The translations under genes were made by a program, and so were the position numbers. Of a stretch of DNA of 64,000 bases, positions 45,469 through 63,620 are shown piece by piece. Source of the DNA: Acholoe squamosa (taxonomy: Eukaryota > Annelida > Polychaeta > Phyllodocida > Polynoidae); the NCBI GenBank assembly GCA_949317995.1, contig OX439047.1, positions 49,549,505-49,613,504 of the forward strand, in the 5' to 3' direction. Numbering within the stretch: the first letter of the stretch is position 1; each line of letters opens with the position of its first letter. A model generated the notes under the pieces. That model saw only the letters and a program-made list of their open reading frames with translations, made no database searches and was not told the origin of the DNA.

Positions 45469-45591
45469 CCGTATCCAGGGATGCGCTAGTGCCTCTTCAA
45501 TGGTAATCCGGCGCTCGGGATCAAGTTCTAGTAGGCGGTGGACAAGGTCTCGTGCATCCTCCGACACTGACTCCCATTGACGGCCCTGGAG
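45469..45591 (-). CDS. CASK: CASK exon: end of the CaM-kinase-like domain
   Basis: On the minus strand, an acceptor TTAAAG at 45592 opens a 123-base, phase-0 exon of 41 codons, closed by a perfect GTAAGT donor at 45468. It reads LQGRQWESVSEDARDLVHRL and continues to RITIEEALAHPWIR. This is kinase subdomains X-XI, including the invariant Arg of the LDPxxRI motif and the HPW motif. Joined to the previous exon, the length matches vertebrate CASK with no gap (GAYQ-LQGRQW against GKYKMNPRQW). It corresponds to about human residues 237-277. The next CASK exon, leading to the CaM-binding helix, was not found downstream. Family assignment rests on the combined four exons. Confidence 0.92.
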
Positions 45592-46506
45592 CTTTAAGCA
45601 CAAATACAATTCACTTACAGACACAGACACACAAAGAGAATGAATTGAGTGCATATGTGCCCATTATATTTTATCTATACAGAAGACAGCCTCTGCCTGA
45701 CATCTGCCACATTTGCAAATAAATTCCTTTAAAGGGCTATTGAAATAAGAACTTTTTGGCGACCTTAGGTGAGTAAAGCCAGGAAAAAGACAAACCTCTT
45801 TCTCATACGCCATCGTAAATAAAAACGTCATTTGATTCAACTTTCTGATATAAATATACTTAAAAAAATGAACAAAGTAGTTATGTTTCAGTTTGGTATC
45901 AAGTGAAAGCTTACCTGGTAGGCACCACGTGCTATCATGTCTACAGCTTACCTGGTAGGCACCACGTGCTATCATGTCTACAGCTTACCTGGTAGGCACC
46001 AAGTGCTATCATGTCTACAGCTTACCTGGTAGGCACCATGTGCTATCATGTCTACAGCTTACCTGGTAGGCACCACATGCTATCATGTCTACAGCTTACC
46101 TGGTAGGCACCACATGCTATCATGTCTACAGCTTACCTGGTAGGCACTATGTGCTATCATGTCTACAGCTTACCTGGTAGGCACCACATGCTATCATGTC
46201 TACAGCTTACCTGGTAGGCACTATGTGCTATCATGTCTACAGCTTACCTGGTAGGCACCACATGCTATCATGTCTACAGCTTACCTGGTAGGCACCACGT
46301 GCTATCATGTCTACAGCTTACCTGGTAGGCACCACATGCTATCATGTCTACAGCTTACCTGGTAGGCACCACGTGCTATCATGTCTACAGCTTACCTGGT
46401 AGGCACCACATGCTATCATGTCTACAGCTTACCTGGTAGGCACCACATGCTATCATGTCTACAGCTTACCTGGTAGGCACTATGTGCTATCATGTCTACA
46501 GCTTAC
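45592..46506 (-). other. CASK: CASK intron, 915 bp, mostly tandem array
   Basis: Bounded by GTAAGC at the 5' side (46506) and a TTAAAG acceptor at the 3' side. About two thirds of it is the 37-bp array described separately. The rest is AT-rich unique sequence. Confidence 0.85.
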
Positions 46507-46533
46507 CTGGTAGGCACCACGTGCTATCATGTC
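45905..46533 (-). repeat. 37-bp tandem array duplicating a CASK exon end and splice donor, 17 copies
   Basis: ACCTGGTAGGCACC recurs from 45913 to 46505 at exactly 37-bp steps, giving 17 copies. In gene orientation each unit is the last 27 bases of the exon ending at 46507 plus the first 10 bases of the intron, so every unit contains CAG|GTAAGC. The exon-proximal copy is the one in frame with the downstream exon. The copy farthest into the intron continues into the ordinary intron (GTAAGCTTTC). Copies vary mainly at GCACGTGG, GCACATAG and GCATGTGG. 37 is not a multiple of 3, and read-through in the exon frame meets TAG in the second added unit. Confidence 0.97.
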
Positions 46534-46682
46534 AAAGAGCCTGTCCTTGGTACCATAGAAGGGTAGTTGACCACTGAGTAGTATGTACAGCATGATGCCC
46601 ACTCCCCATACGTCTACTGGCTTGCCGTACGGCTCTCGACGTACCACCTCCGGGGCCATAAAATGGGGCGTCCCTATCCGAC
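46507..46682 (-). CDS. CASK: CASK exon: activation segment and middle of the kinase C-lobe
   Basis: The minus-strand acceptor TTGCAG at 46683 and donor GTAAGC at 46506 bound a 176-base exon. Its first two bases complete a Gly codon split with the previous exon. It then reads [40 protein letters not shown] and [26 protein letters not shown] is the activation-segment/APE motif, DVWGVG is subdomain IX, and [10 protein letters not shown] is the CaM-kinase-type segment. Sequence and length match CASK residues of about 179-236. The last 27 bases are the source of the tandem array in the following intron, so 16 further identical-type donors lie directly downstream of the working one. Confidence 0.95.
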
Positions 46683-50206: not shown

Positions 50207-52025
50207 CTGCTCTCACACGGAGACAAATGCAGATAGATTCACAATTTTTTTCACCAAAGTAGGGGATAATAGGACCCTTCATATGGGTAATAATAAATAG
50301 TTTGAAGCTCCATTTTTCCATGTTTTATAACTGATTTAGATTTAGGTACTGGACGTTACAAATTGCAGATTTCAATTTTCAAAGACACATGATGAAAAAT
50401 TCTCACTCAGTAACATGTCCAAACCTCATGGAAATGATACCTATGATCATAAACAATACAAAATATAATTTTGGGATAATCCAGAGGTTCTTTCTTAAAT
50501 ACAGGACACTTGTAAAAAATACAAAAAGTAAAAAAAAAAGAACCAATTTGGCCATCTTTTTCACTTCGGCAGGCTATAAGTCTGAGATTTTTTGATGGAT
50601 GACCACAAATTTAAACAAATCTGATAGCCCTAAGTATCCTCTTTCAAATGAGTCTATGTAAGACAAGATTGGTTCACAATTTCTTTCTCCAGAGCCATAA
50701 GAGTTCAAAATTACCCAAAGAACCCAAAATCTACTGCTTTCTGGCGACTTGACCCTTATATCATACCGTATGTTATGTCATCTGAAGATGCTATCTCCAT
50801 GCCGGCTGTATCCATAGTTTATTAATTACAGGAGTAAAACCAGTTAATCCATCCTACAGGCTGCATTGTCGACCTAGAACTATCACGGTATTACAAACGG
50901 TTTTACTTAACTGTTGTACATATTCAAATAGATTTCATTTTTATCCAAAATTTGATGTTTTGAAGAAAGGTTGAATCTGACTTGAGTTGATTCTGTTGCT
51001 AAGGAACAAGTGATTCACCAGGTATTCATAGTTAAATTTATCATTAAACCAACAAGGAAACCTTGGTAACATCCCTTCTAACGTCGACAAAGCAAAGTTT
51101 TGTAATATTATTGTTAGCATAGAATGATGCATTAGCACAATAAAAACTGGAGTCAAAAAGTTAGATATTAAGAAGTTAGATATTAATGCTCATGCAGTGA
51201 CAAGTAATTCTGCGAGTAATGTTCAAGCGTCATAAACATCGGTATTCAACAAGCTATTTGAATTCGGATAAATCATGAAAGGACCTTTAATTTTGCAACA
51301 TTTTCTTTTGATAGGCTTAGAGAAAATCTCTTGGACTTCGTGTTTATATGTTAGGAGAGAGGTTCAAAGTAGCAAATCTTTACAAGGTTTAGTTCAGGAA
51401 TAAGATGTGCTTGGTTCTTATTGTATATCGGCATCCGACAGTCTCTTACCAAACTGATCATCTTGTAAACTTATCCATTGTTGTGTGCCGAACAGCGGTC
51501 CATCAGTAAGTTCTGTAAAAAGTGTGAGAATCTGCAAAGACTTCTGTCAAAACTTACCGCTTACCTTTTGTACATATACTCCTTTCTGTACACGGTTTGG
51601 GGCACAGTAATCTGTGTGCAAACACTTTGTAGAATTTCCTCTCAAACAACTATTCCGGCACTAAACTATTTCATATTCAACATGCCTGTGAGTTGACAAT
51701 TCTGAACAAAACACCATTAATGTCTATGAAGCTATTTCATATTTAGGTTATTGGCTCTACCTTACCCTTTCGTAACTCTGAATCTATTATCACACATGCC
51801 CCTCCATTCTAAGTACACAATCACACACAGACGAAAACAAATTTCTTTAATTTGCCTGGACCTGTTCCAGAAACAAGCAGATAGTAGCATCGTGATACAT
51901 CGGTACACTACAGATCAGTTGACAGGACTATTTTTAAAGTAGGATGGATATATCATTAAATAAGACCGAGATTGATAAGCGATGGTCATGTGGTTTCCAT
52001 GGCAACTGGCCGACTCTCCACACAC

Positions 52026-52145
52026 ATGCCTTTTTACCAGGAGTATCCTTCAAATAGAGTGTAACAGCTTTAATGTCCCATGCCTTGTCACCAGGAGTAT
52101 CCTTCAAATAGAGTGTAACAGCTCTAATCTGCCATCATGCAGAGA
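52026..52145. repeat. 54-bp tandem duplication with a third distant partial copy
   Basis: ACCAGGAGTATCCTTCAAAT starts at 52036 and 52090, and each copy runs on to AGAGTGTAACAGCT. TGTCACCAGGAGTATCCTTT recurs at about 52662 as a partial third copy. Confidence 0.88.
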
Positions 52146-53154
52146 TGTCAGTTGGGTATGGGCTCAACCTCTGAAATTGTTGGGTGTTAGCAAAGCACCC
52201 ATTTCTCTCAATTTATCATACTAAAAGCACCCATGTCATCTTCATTTCAACCTGTTCCTCTATTTCAAAACTTTTAAAACCATCTCCAGATTGGATGGTG
52301 ATAGAAAAACAATTAAAAGACTGCATCAGAATTTCAGCCAATCAGAAGCCAGCTTAGATTCATGTCCTCTGAAATGAGATTTCAGATATCCTCTGATCTC
52401 TGAAGGGTGGTTTGTCTAGAAAAGGCTAGAGGGCAGCACAAGGCATGCTGAATTTCCCCTGTTGAAGCCTTAACTGCTCAGCCTTATGCTCCATAGAAGT
52501 AGAAAGGGCATGTTGTAAGGGTATCTATGATTAATGTAATTCCCTCTATCTATATTATGACCACAAGATGGAAGAAGCCTCTGAGCTGTCTGACTTTTGA
52601 GAAAGTTTGAACATCTGAAAATAGACAGATCTCTGAAGGTCTGACATCTCTGTCCATGCATTGTCACCAGGAGTATCCTTTAATCGGCATCTTTAATGAC
52701 TCAGCAGCTTCTTGGCTAGCTCTCATTCATGGACTACAAGTCAAACCACTAACCTGTAGGTAAAGTGGATAAAAACATGAAACTCTACACTTTTTTAGTT
52801 TTGCACTACCTATACTTTGCTGTGTTGCTTTAACTTCTAGGGTAGTCCGTCCTAGACCTGACCTGTCTTTAGAAATTGAAGTGGGGTCGAGTCTTGGTCG
52901 GCTCACCCTGTGTAACATAATTTATCAAAGGGACGATTATACAAACGACTGCAGGCTGAGTGATTGAAATGGAATATCTTTTCTTCTGAATCTGTTTATC
53001 CTAGGGAAATAGCATTCTTATAAGGAATGTACCATCAGGAATCACACCGTTAACTGCACGGTATGCATCATGTACAGCTTCATTAGAGTCTATCTAGATG
53101 TCTGCGCCCATGACCAGTGTATACGGTGTTTGAGTGAACTTAACAAAGACCTAC

Positions 53155-53330
53155 CTCCTGATATACATCCTGTATGCGGCAGTTGTATGGCCACTCCAAA
53201 CCCTCCCAGCTTCACTGGAGCTGAGTTTTCTTTGGATGCGAGCAGGACGCAGTGAGGTTTCATGTCTCGGTGAATGATGTCATTCTCGTGACAGTACCGC
53301 AATGCCTCCAGGATTTGTCGCATGTAGTGG
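53155..53330 (-). CDS. CASK: CASK exon: catalytic loop and GFG segment
   Basis: The acceptor GCTGCAG at 53331 and donor GTAGGT at 53154 (minus strand) bound a 176-base exon. Its first base completes a Ser codon begun in the previous exon and its last base starts a Gly codon. It reads [20 protein letters not shown], then [20 protein letters not shown] and [20 protein letters not shown]. The catalytic loop HRDxKP is followed by HC where active kinases have xN, and GFG stands where they have DFG. These are the hallmarks of CASK (His145, Cys146 and Gly162 in human numbering, with identical spacing), a kinase described as acting without Mg2+. CASK is a membrane-associated guanylate-kinase scaffold at synapses and epithelial junctions. 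The identity of this exon is the main basis for the gene call. Confidence 0.97.
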
Positions 53331-53703
<373 letters not shown>

Positions 53704-56953: not shown

Positions 56954-59900
56954 TGTATGTATGTATGTATGTATGTATGTATGTATGTATGTATGTATGT
57001 ATGTATGTATGTATGTATGTATGTATGTATGTATGTATGTATGTATGTATGTATGTATGTATGTATGTATGTATGTATGTATGTATGTATGTATGTATGT
57101 ATGTATGTATGTATGTATGTATGTATGTATGTATGTATGTATGTATGTATGTATGTATGTATGTATGTATGTATGTATGTATGTATGTATGTATGTATGT
57201 ATGTATGTATGTATGTATGTATGTATGTATGTATGTATGTATGTATGTATGTATGTATGTATGTATGTATGTATGTATGTATGTATGTATGTATGTATGT
57301 ATGTATGTATGTATGTATGTATGTATGTATGTATGTATGTATGTATGTATGTATGTATGTATGTATGTATGTATGTATGTATGTATGTATGTATGTATGT
57401 ATGTATGTATGTATGTATGTATGTATGTATGTATGTATGTATGTATGTATGTATGTATGTATGTATGTATGTATGTATGTATGTATGTATGTATGTATGT
57501 ATGTATGTATGTATGTATGTATGTATGTATGTATGTATGTATGTATGTATGTATGTATGTATGTATGTATGTATGTATGTATGTATGTATGTATGTATGT
57601 ATGTATGTATGTATGTATGTATGTATGTATGTATGTATGTATGTATGTATGTATGTATGTATGTATGTATGTATGTATGTATGTATGTATGTATGTATGT
57701 ATGTATGTATGTATGTATGTATGTATGTATGTATGTATGTATGTATGTATGTATGTATGTATGTATGTATGTATGTATGTATGTATGTATGTATGTATGT
57801 ATGTATGTATGTATGTATGTATGTATGTATGTATGTATGTATGTATGTATGTATGTATGTATGTATGTATGTATGTATGTATGTATGTATGTATGTATGT
57901 ATGTATGTATGTATGTATGTATGTATGTATGTATGTATGTATGTATGTATGTATGTATGTATGTATGTATGTATGTATGTATGTATGTATGTATGTATGT
58001 ATGTATGTATGTATGTATGTATGTATGTATGTATGTATGTATGTATGTATGTATGTATGTATGTATGTATGTATGTATGTATGTATGTATGTATGTATGT
58101 ATGTATGTATGTATGTATGTATGTATGTATGTATGTATGTATGTATGTATGTATGTATGTATGTATGTATGTATGTATGTATGTATGTATGTATGTATGT
58201 ATGTATGTATGTATGTATGTATGTATGTATGTATGTATGTATGTATGTATGTATGTATGTATGTATGTATGTATGTATGTATGTATGTATGTATGTATGT
58301 ATGTATGTATGTATGTATGTATGTATGTATGTATGTATGTATGTATGTATGTATGTATGTATGTATGTATGTATGTATGTATGTATGTATGTATGTATGT
58401 ATGTATGTATGTATGTATGTATGTATGTATGTATGTATGTATGTATGTATGTATGTATGTATGTATGTATGTATGTATGTATGTATGTATGTATGTATGT
58501 ATGTATGTATGTATGTATGTATGTATGTATGTATGTATGTATGTATGTATGTATGTATGTATGTATGTATGTATGTATGTATGTATGTATGTATGTATGT
58601 ATGTATGTATGTATGTATGTATGTATGTATGTATGTATGTATGTATGTATGTATGTATGTATGTATGTATGTATGTATGTATGTATGTATGTATGTATGT
58701 ATGTATGTATGTATGTATGTATGTATGTATGTATGTATGTATGTATGTATGTATGTATGTATGTATGTATGTATGTATGTATGTATGTATGTATGTATGT
58801 ATGTATGTATGTATGTATGTATGTATGTATGTATGTATGTATGTATGTATGTATGTATGTATGTATGTATGTATGTATGTATGTATGTATGTATGTATGT
58901 ATGTATGTATGTATGTATGTATGTATGTATGTATGTATGTATGTATGTATGTATGTATGTATGTATGTATGTATGTATGTATGTATGTATGTATGTATGT
59001 ATGTATGTATGTATGTATGTATGTATGTATGTATGTATGTATGTATGTATGTATGTATGTATGTATGTATGTATGTATGTATGTATGTATGTATGTATGT
59101 ATGTATGTATGTATGTATGTATGTATGTATGTATGTATGTATGTATGTATGTATGTATGTATGTATGTATGTATGTATGTATGTATGTATGTATGTATGT
59201 ATGTATGTATGTATGTATGTATGTATGTATGTATGTATGTATGTATGTATGTATGTATGTATGTATGTATGTATGTATGTATGTATGTATGTATGTATGT
59301 ATGTATGTATGTATGTATGTATGTATGTATGTATGTATGTATGTATGTATGTATGTATGTATGTATGTATGTATGTATGTATGTATGTATGTATGTATGT
59401 ATGTATGTATGTATGTATGTATGTATGTATGTATGTATGTATGTATGTATGTATGTATGTATGTATGTATGTATGTATGTATGTATGTATGTATGTATGT
59501 ATGTATGTATGTATGTATGTATGTATGTATGTATGTATGTATGTATGTATGTATGTATGTATGTATGTATGTATGTATGTATGTATGTATGTATGTATGT
59601 ATGTATGTATGTATGTATGTATGTATGTATGTATGTATGTATGTATGTATGTATGTATGTATGTATGTATGTATGTATGTATGTATGTATGTATGTATGT
59701 ATGTATGTATGTATGTATGTATGTATGTATGTATGTATGTATGTATGTATGTATGTATGTATGTATGTATGTATGTATGTATGTATGTATGTATGTATGT
59801 ATGTATGTATGTATGTATGTATGTATGTATGTATGTATGTATGTATGTATGTATGTATGTATGTATGTATGTATGTATGTATGTATGTATGTATGTATGT

Positions 59901-62900
59901 ATGTATGTATGTATGTATGTATGTATGTATGTATGTATGTATGTATGTATGTATGTATGTATGTATGTATGTATGTATGTATGTATGTATGTATGTATGT
60001 ATGTATGTATGTATGTATGTATGTATGTATGTATGTATGTATGTATGTATGTATGTATGTATGTATGTATGTATGTATGTATGTATGTATGTATGTATGT
60101 ATGTATGTATGTATGTATGTATGTATGTATGTATGTATGTATGTATGTATGTATGTATGTATGTATGTATGTATGTATGTATGTATGTATGTATGTATGT
60201 ATGTATGTATGTATGTATGTATGTATGTATGTATGTATGTATGTATGTATGTATGTATGTATGTATGTATGTATGTATGTATGTATGTATGTATGTATGT
60301 ATGTATGTATGTATGTATGTATGTATGTATGTATGTATGTATGTATGTATGTATGTATGTATGTATGTATGTATGTATGTATGTATGTATGTATGTATGT
60401 ATGTATGTATGTATGTATGTATGTATGTATGTATGTATGTATGTATGTATGTATGTATGTATGTATGTATGTATGTATGTATGTATGTATGTATGTATGT
60501 ATGTATGTATGTATGTATGTATGTATGTATGTATGTATGTATGTATGTATGTATGTATGTATGTATGTATGTATGTATGTATGTATGTATGTATGTATGT
60601 ATGTATGTATGTATGTATGTATGTATGTATGTATGTATGTATGTATGTATGTATGTATGTATGTATGTATGTATGTATGTATGTATGTATGTATGTATGT
60701 ATGTATGTATGTATGTATGTATGTATGTATGTATGTATGTATGTATGTATGTATGTATGTATGTATGTATGTATGTATGTATGTATGTATGTATGTATGT
60801 ATGTATGTATGTATGTATGTATGTATGTATGTATGTATGTATGTATGTATGTATGTATGTATGTATGTATGTATGTATGTATGTATGTATGTATGTATGT
60901 ATGTATGTATGTATGTATGTATGTATGTATGTATGTATGTATGTATGTATGTATGTATGTATGTATGTATGTATGTATGTATGTATGTATGTATGTATGT
61001 ATGTATGTATGTATGTATGTATGTATGTATGTATGTATGTATGTATGTATGTATGTATGTATGTATGTATGTATGTATGTATGTATGTATGTATGTATGT
61101 ATGTATGTATGTATGTATGTATGTATGTATGTATGTATGTATGTATGTATGTATGTATGTATGTATGTATGTATGTATGTATGTATGTATGTATGTATGT
61201 ATGTATGTATGTATGTATGTATGTATGTATGTATGTATGTATGTATGTATGTATGTATGTATGTATGTATGTATGTATGTATGTATGTATGTATGTATGT
61301 ATGTATGTATGTATGTATGTATGTATGTATGTATGTATGTATGTATGTATGTATGTATGTATGTATGTATGTATGTATGTATGTATGTATGTATGTATGT
61401 ATGTATGTATGTATGTATGTATGTATGTATGTATGTATGTATGTATGTATGTATGTATGTATGTATGTATGTATGTATGTATGTATGTATGTATGTATGT
61501 ATGTATGTATGTATGTATGTATGTATGTATGTATGTATGTATGTATGTATGTATGTATGTATGTATGTATGTATGTATGTATGTATGTATGTATGTATGT
61601 ATGTATGTATGTATGTATGTATGTATGTATGTATGTATGTATGTATGTATGTATGTATGTATGTATGTATGTATGTATGTATGTATGTATGTATGTATGT
61701 ATGTATGTATGTATGTATGTATGTATGTATGTATGTATGTATGTATGTATGTATGTATGTATGTATGTATGTATGTATGTATGTATGTATGTATGTATGT
61801 ATGTATGTATGTATGTATGTATGTATGTATGTATGTATGTATGTATGTATGTATGTATGTATGTATGTATGTATGTATGTATGTATGTATGTATGTATGT
61901 ATGTATGTATGTATGTATGTATGTATGTATGTATGTATGTATGTATGTATGTATGTATGTATGTATGTATGTATGTATGTATGTATGTATGTATGTATGT
62001 ATGTATGTATGTATGTATGTATGTATGTATGTATGTATGTATGTATGTATGTATGTATGTATGTATGTATGTATGTATGTATGTATGTATGTATGTATGT
62101 ATGTATGTATGTATGTATGTATGTATGTATGTATGTATGTATGTATGTATGTATGTATGTATGTATGTATGTATGTATGTATGTATGTATGTATGTATGT
62201 ATGTATGTATGTATGTATGTATGTATGTATGTATGTATGTATGTATGTATGTATGTATGTATGTATGTATGTATGTATGTATGTATGTATGTATGTATGT
62301 ATGTATGTATGTATGTATGTATGTATGTATGTATGTATGTATGTATGTATGTATGTATGTATGTATGTATGTATGTATGTATGTATGTATGTATGTATGT
62401 ATGTATGTATGTATGTATGTATGTATGTATGTATGTATGTATGTATGTATGTATGTATGTATGTATGTATGTATGTATGTATGTATGTATGTATGTATGT
62501 ATGTATGTATGTATGTATGTATGTATGTATGTATGTATGTATGTATGTATGTATGTATGTATGTATGTATGTATGTATGTATGTATGTATGTATGTATGT
62601 ATGTATGTATGTATGTATGTATGTATGTATGTATGTATGTATGTATGTATGTATGTATGTATGTATGTATGTATGTATGTATGTATGTATGTATGTATGT
62701 ATGTATGTATGTATGTATGTATGTATGTATGTATGTATGTATGTATGTATGTATGTATGTATGTATGTATGTATGTATGTATGTATGTATGTATGTATGT
62801 ATGTATGTATGTATGTATGTATGTATGTATGTATGTATGTATGTATGTATGTATGTATGTATGTATGTATGTATGTATGTATGTATGTATGTATGTATGT

Positions 62901-63598
62901 ATGTATGTATGTATGTATGTATGTATGTATGTATGTATGTATGTATGTATGTATGTATGTATGTATGTATGTATGTATGTATGTATGTATGTATGTATGT
63001 ATGTATGTATGTATGTATGTATGTATGTATGTATGTATGTATGTATGTATGTATGTATGTATGTATGTATGTATGTATGTATGTATGTATGTATGTATGT
63101 ATGTATGTATGTATGTATGTATGTATGTATGTATGTATGTATGTATGTATGTATGTATGTATGTATGTATGTATGTATGTATGTATGTATGTATGTATGT
63201 ATGTATGTATGTATGTATGTATGTATGTATGTATGTATGTATGTATGTATGTATGTATGTATGTATGTATGTATGTATGTATGTATGTATGTATGTATGT
63301 ATGTATGTATGTATGTATGTATGTATGTATGTATGTATGTATGTATGTATGTATGTATGTATGTATGTATGTATGTATGTATGTATGTATGTATGTATGT
63401 ATGTATGTATGTATGTATGTATGTATGTATGTATGTATGTATGTATGTATGTATGTATGTATGTATGTATGTATGTATGTATGTATGTATGTATGTATGT
63501 ATGTATGTATGTATGTATGTATGTATGTATGTATGTATGTATGTATGTATGTATGTATGTATGTATGTATGTATGTATGTATGTATGTATGTATGTAT
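56954..63598. repeat. 6,645-bp uninterrupted (ATGT)n microsatellite, about 1,661 units
   Basis: From 56954 to 63598 every unit I read is ATGT with no interruption. It passes directly into an AT run. All three plus frames are open and read Met-Tyr-Val-Cys repeats for over 2,200 codons, and the minus frames read Thr-Tyr-Ile-His. These are by-products. Every step alternates purine and pyrimidine. Length and purity are extreme for a tetranucleotide repeat. It lies about 3.3 kb upstream of a CASK exon, probably within an intron. Confidence 0.98.
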
Positions 63599-63620
63599 AT
63601 ATATATATATATATATATAT
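63599..63620. repeat. (AT)n tail of the microsatellite
   Basis: About 11 AT units follow the ATGT array without a gap, ending at TTGTATTATC. Confidence 0.95.

Follow-up and report, generated by a model that had tools for sequence, protein, structure and literature searches.

Seventeen identical splice donors in tandem at the end of a CASK exon in the polychaete Acholoe squamosa: probably a mirage-type minisatellite in an annelid

Minisatellites that lie across an exon-intron boundary and repeat splice signals within their copies are called mirages, a name reportedly coined by Canestro in 2002 for repeats in cephalochordates. In lancelets, mirages are described from Adh3, the globin genes BflGb6 and BflGb9, troponin C and PGBD5 (PMC3902484, PMC3087553), with units of 10–72 bp in Adh3 and 150–160 bp in the globins (PMC3087553), and they are reported not to disturb regular splicing (PMC3087553, PMC3902484). 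Here, a similar layout is described at the end of a kinase-domain exon of CASK in Acholoe squamosa, where a 37-bp unit containing the 5′ splice site CAG|GTAAGC is present 17 times in tandem. The array lies in a window of 64,000 nucleotides, which is the whole stretch analysed (assembly GCA_949317995.1, contig OX439047.1, positions 49,549,505 to 49,613,504 of the forward strand), and positions below refer to this window unless a contig is given. It belongs to a known kind of repeat, probably in a phylum that is new with respect to the lancelet mirages, with more copies and with recurrence in the same genome.

The closest human counterpart is a variable number of tandem repeats (VNTR) in CBS, which a 2001 study by Lievers is said, according to its title, to link to reduced activity. 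This 31-bp VNTR, c.1444_1467+7(16_21), spans the boundary between exon 13 and intron 13 (PMC2630376, PMC1395315). By its name it comprises 24 exon and 7 intron bases repeated 16–21 times, close to the 27 exon and 10 intron bases repeated 17 times in CASK; however, the gene and the phylum are different, and the known length alleles are those of CBS. Among annelids, intron 1 of the earthworm metallothionein gene carries large minisatellites whose monomers average 178 and 181 bp (PMC12783039), which resemble the present case as intronic minisatellites, whereas the accessible text of that report does not describe repeated donors. No annelid report of repeated donors was recognised by title or abstract among the literature matches listed.

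On the minus strand, positions 46533 to 45908 consist of 17 units of 37 bp, each with 27 exon-type and 10 intron bases, as the first-pass annotation of this window had claimed. Tandem Repeats Finder (TRF) assigns the array a period of 37, 16.9 copies, 95% matches and a score of 1147, compared with a top score of 52 across five shuffles of the window. When the strand is cut every 37 bases from 46533, CAG|GTAAGC is identical in 17/17 units, so the claim that all donors are of equal strength by sequence also stands. The last base of the exon lies at 46507 (donor 1), and the 16 extra donors have their last exon-type base at 46470 and then every 37 bases down to 45915. The motif agrees with the consensus CAGGTAAGT in 8 of 9 bases; for the three remaining mapped donors of CASK the figures are 7, 7 and 8. 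A genome search with the array as query returned the array itself as its single match. Like the lancelet mirages, the array is a tandem repeat across an exon-intron boundary with splice signals in every copy, and its unit length falls within their published range; like the CBS VNTR, it repeats an exon end together with its donor within the range of about 16–21 copies. The lancelet mirages differ in having fewer copies (haplotypes of 6 and 3 in BflGb6 and up to 7 in PGBD5, in the accessible parts of the reports) than CASK with 17 or ASCC3, discussed below, with about 90.

The exon that ends in the array, termed exon C (minus strand, 46507..46682, 176 nt), encodes part of the kinase domain and has CASK as its best match in the Protein Data Bank (PDB; phmmer, E 9.1e-29); it ends inside unit 1, at the sole donor that keeps the full frame. 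It is preceded by exons A (53573..53650, 78 nt) and B (53155..53330, 176 nt) and followed by exon D (45469..45591, 123 nt), the first exon past the array, all on the minus strand. The four exons join in one open frame with GT/AG at the junctions and correspond to approximately residues 94–277 of human CASK (a human sequence entered by hand served for comparison and as query), which upholds the exon C/D junction 46507-45591 proposed earlier. If the first donor is used, the intervening intron measures 915 nt (45592..46506, minus strand), and its opening 599 nt are array. CASK extends beyond the window on both sides: within 264 kb around the window, tblastn places human residues 54–92 at window coordinate +73136 and residues 276–305, 305–339 and 335–394 at about −30883, −40724 and −56160. 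These four further exons rule out a four-exon fragment. The introns are very long, with about 76 kb following exon D. A blastn search of the window (E 0.01) detected no further copy of any of the eight exon ends outside the array, and only one of the four outer exons has an array within 150 nt, situated roughly 90 nt beyond the 276–305 match (period 34, 6.0 copies).

The four exons were spliced in silico with each of the 17 donors. Only donor 1 gives the full frame, in agreement with the earlier claim that the exon-proximal donor alone yields a full protein, while donors 2–17 share one end, VSCRHDST followed by a stop. This stop is a TAG in unit 2 (46480..46482, minus strand; position from the unit listing), eight codons beyond the true exon end, and it is common to all of these products because unit 2 carries the variant CACATAG. 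The product of intron retention reaches the same stop. The first-pass annotation had instead expected one added unit to lead to a TGA in the next exon, which does not hold; in silico, a TGA in exon D would need a unit 2 of the CACGTGG or CATGTGG type. Use of later donors would lengthen exon C from 176 nt up to 768 nt.

Variation among the units is confined to few positions. In units 1–16, only columns 13, 14 and 16 vary and the other 34 of 37 are invariant; columns 35 and 37 deviate in unit 17 alone. Columns 13–14 form the sole CpG of the unit (CACGTG), with column 16 two positions further, and the CpG is lost in 12 of the 17 units (seven CATGTGG, three CACATAG, one CACATGG and one CACTTGG). 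The unit types follow one another in the order ABCCACACBCBCCDEAA, with the CpG type kept in the end units 1, 16 and 17 as well as in units 5 and 7. Taking the CpG type as the putative ancestral form, the variation has the look of a young array in which CpGs are decaying, a pattern that would be mutational and would call for no selection. Because nearly all other columns are invariant too, the invariance of the donor gives no sign of special selection. The CpG type at both ends resembles the exclusion of edges in the lancelet BflGb6 mirage, where, in the accessible text, the edges of the cluster escape homogenization (PMC3087553).

Amplification of a donor had been put forward as a matter of CASK; this stands for CASK itself and falls as a peculiarity of that gene, as further genes have the same layout at their exon ends. 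A wide scan, which required three CAGGTAAG spaced 18–48 apart, yielded 1600 matches genome-wide, and the 100 listed (C1 to the start of C3) contain 21 arrays, the heads of 7 of which were examined. Three of these 7 lie at exon ends (ASCC3, a TTC27-like gene and one unnamed gene). The ASCC3 array (C3:8561788-8558783; L025, L070, L072) has a period of 34 and 89.9 copies with 72 perfect CAGGTAAG; read-through meets a stop after 14 codons, and the peptide preceding the donor has ASCC3 as its best PDB match (E 3.9e-19) and matches Pfam Sec63 (2.7e-14). The second gene, which we take to be TTC27-like from the motif GKRT in its next exon, has no Pfam match and PDB matches at chance level only (E 0.18 and 0.2). 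The third has an open frame reaching the donor, with WSD (E 0.11) as its only Pfam match and no PDB match. The other four were left out of the exon-end count: L024 has no convincing frame, L026 and L027 belong to one dispersed family with a common flank (although in L027 at least 70 codons up to the donor are open), and L028 is part of a dispersed 41-bp family. The dispersed element at L026 and L027 (C1:2127447-2127900 and C1:108309700-108310100), with its common flank, ends in three CAGGTAAG units in tandem and then an inverted copy of the unit, an arrangement that may allow a hairpin.

A narrow scan at spacings of 35–39 gave 165 matches, and the 100 listed include at least 14 distinct arrays on C3–C12. 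The heads of 14 arrays were fetched, and 9 of the 14 peptides were submitted to Pfam. In three, a Pfam-supported exon reaches the first donor, namely APH (1.2e-8; presumably an ACAD10/11-like gene), TSP_1 (2.4e-12) and polycystin (6.1e-9). Four others (L097, L098, L104 and L106) have open frames of 81–89 codons to the donor and no Pfam match, two have weak frames of 49–51 codons (L096, with no Pfam match, and L101, outside the Pfam scan), and four (L095, L100, L102 and L107) have no convincing frame; the piece fetched for L108 did not reach the array head. Read-through stops after 9 codons in the TSP1 array and after 1 codon in the polycystin array. The APH array (L099, C7:19686600-19687900) has a 36-bp unit, and as far as the piece read extends its frame is kept without a stop, giving GKYFPDTIPQFP repeats; read-through adds about 12 residues per unit. 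One listed unit close to the end of this piece has 35 bp and would shift the frame. Judged by its reading frame, alternative donors in this array could add protein repeats. The scans returned 542 + 1058 matches against 91 + 106 for the mirrored pattern (wide) and 83 + 82 against 0 + 15 (narrow), but a genome-wide excess of donors in arrays is not claimed, since the counts are inflated by families of dispersed repeats and by single large arrays.

These arrays occur in a genome of 1.48 Gb in 63 contigs, at least 17 of which exceed 50 Mb, that is rich in minisatellites. In the 264 kb around CASK, 112 loci with a period of at least 10 cover 49,578 bases, or 18.8%, and 27 such loci lie within the window. 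Due to this density, some arrays would be expected astride splice sites by chance. The CASK array is best explained as a mirage-type minisatellite, a near-neutral tandem duplication that would be tolerated as long as the exon-proximal donor is used; the probability of this explanation is put at roughly 0.8. A segment straddling the end of exon C would have been duplicated in tandem and the array would then have grown by slippage or unequal exchange, as may often happen in this minisatellite-rich genome. The final nine codons of exon C and the functional donor would come from copy 1, leaving copies 2–17 intronic. Exon definition provides a basis for preferring the first donor, which would be transcribed earliest and bridged over the short 176-nt exon to its acceptor. 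Rare use of a later donor would produce one frame with a TAG eight codons on, and such transcripts would be expected to be removed by nonsense-mediated decay. Near-neutrality would be workable because copy 1 is intact, the additional copies lie in the intron and every wrong choice runs into an early stop. Furthermore, given that the same genome bears such arrays at exon ends of other genes, the cell presumably picks the first donor reliably.

Several points weigh against this explanation. Among 40 protein-kinase exon loci (34 kb; the matched place ±250 nt, 40 of 141 matches taken roughly in rank order after removal of long single frames and contig-end copies), 5 have any array, where about 14.5 arrays would be expected from the density in the 264 kb, and no array lies over the matched part of the exon at any of the 40 loci; at L049, an array ends 24 nt before the matched part and may touch the acceptor. 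This thinning near exons is approximate, since TRF misses arrays cut at the edges of short pieces; it suggests that an array landing beside exons may not be neutral. The order of unit types gives no significant two-unit periodicity of the kind expected from exchange (lag-2 matches 6/15, P 0.13), and lags 1, 3 and 4 are likewise not significant. CASK residues 1–53 and those after 394 were not found by tblastn in the 264 kb, so the gene was not seen whole. Donor choice in the CASK array is something we infer from sequence. Donor 1 is predicted to be about 10 times as accessible as the median of the remaining donors, but this ratio was reached by 23% of arrays with all 17 units scrambled and by 46.5% of those with the real unit 1 and 16 scrambled units (n = 200 per design). 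RNA structure was thus rejected as the selector of donor 1, given that scrambled arrays often match the ratio.

Other explanations ascribe a role to the extra donors. The array could control dosage if a fixed leak into donors 2–17 produced unproductive CASK mRNA, with array length setting the leak and copy number tuning the amount of CASK. The 16 decoys match the real donor exactly and all of them lead to the same unproductive stop, as such a device would have it; yet, with the CpG set aside, the donors are no more conserved than other parts of the unit, and the copies in ASCC3 do not all have a perfect donor (72 in 89.9 copies). Early stops are moreover common in intron read-through, as seen after 14 codons in ASCC3, 9 in the TSP1 exon and 1 in the polycystin exon, and the APH-domain array is in frame and stop-free in the piece read, with a later unit one base shorter that would shift the frame. 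Dosage control is accordingly considered improbable. A broader proposal, somewhat less improbable and still unlikely, is that exon-end donor arrays form a genome-wide class of tens of genes or more, in which length-dependent splicing noise sets differences in expression between individuals and donor choice at the APH exon could generate protein repeats that vary in length.

Recursive or corrective splicing would make use of the AG in the units as an acceptor for donor 1, which would regenerate a donor and either render the array invisible in the mRNA or correct a wrong first cut. By sequence, a junction between donor 1 and the AG in any one of units 2–16 does restore CAG|GTAAGC. In the unit, the 20 nt preceding NAG include 10 pyrimidines, against 11–16 at the four mapped CASK acceptors. 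However, a polypyrimidine tract is not clear by eye and the process is superfluous for explaining the data, which leaves it very improbable. Equally little weight is given to an assembly artefact, in which the true locus would have one or few copies: the locus is represented by a single assembly, but the units differ among themselves in the irregular order given above, the contigs are of chromosome scale and similar arrays are present at other genes.

Some further features of the sequence were recorded. Within the window, positions 56954-63618 comprise 6.6 kb of almost pure TGTA repeat, and a CASK intron contains a short duplicated stretch (52025-52135 and about 52555-52692) with the frame LKDTPG in three related copies. 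A Pfam scan of read-through frames on both strands of window positions 1–45.4 kb, except 7.2–10.5 kb, returned only minus-strand matches to Gam (5.7e-6) and the pectate-lyase-like Gp49 (0.0028), which are taken as chance or repeat matches, and Rfam gave no match in the window. Elsewhere in the genome, a kinase frame of 316 aa lies near the ends of many contigs with near-identical scores (mostly 73 bits, profile 57–263), for example at C1:127042068-127042670, C3:92949167-92949769 and C13:71184769-71185371, and suggests a family of subtelomeric kinases, here in an animal.

The genome also differs from that of lancelets in its size of 1.48 Gb and probably in its mitochondrial gene order. In the 7.8 kb read of the mitochondrial contig (15,641 bp), ND4L, ND4, the large subunit (LSU) rRNA, ND1, ND3 and ND2 lie on one strand, the protein genes having been named by eye; this order appears to agree with annelids rather than with lancelets. 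A genome search for the annelid erythrocruorin linker (PF16915) gave no match, and its control was likewise silent. In the mitochondrial contig, the large rRNA is followed by a long repeat that is rich in TA and dinucleotide-like (L094:4417-4860).

Selection between equivalent 5′ splice sites is mostly investigated with built reporters that have few sites. Here, natural and conserved genes, for which an intact protein is presumably required, carry 17 (CASK) and 72 (ASCC3) identical donors in a row, and RNA sequencing of this species would measure the rule that the first donor wins, together with its error rate by gene and by array length. Mirages, known from lancelets and with one close human counterpart, thus probably recur in a distant animal.
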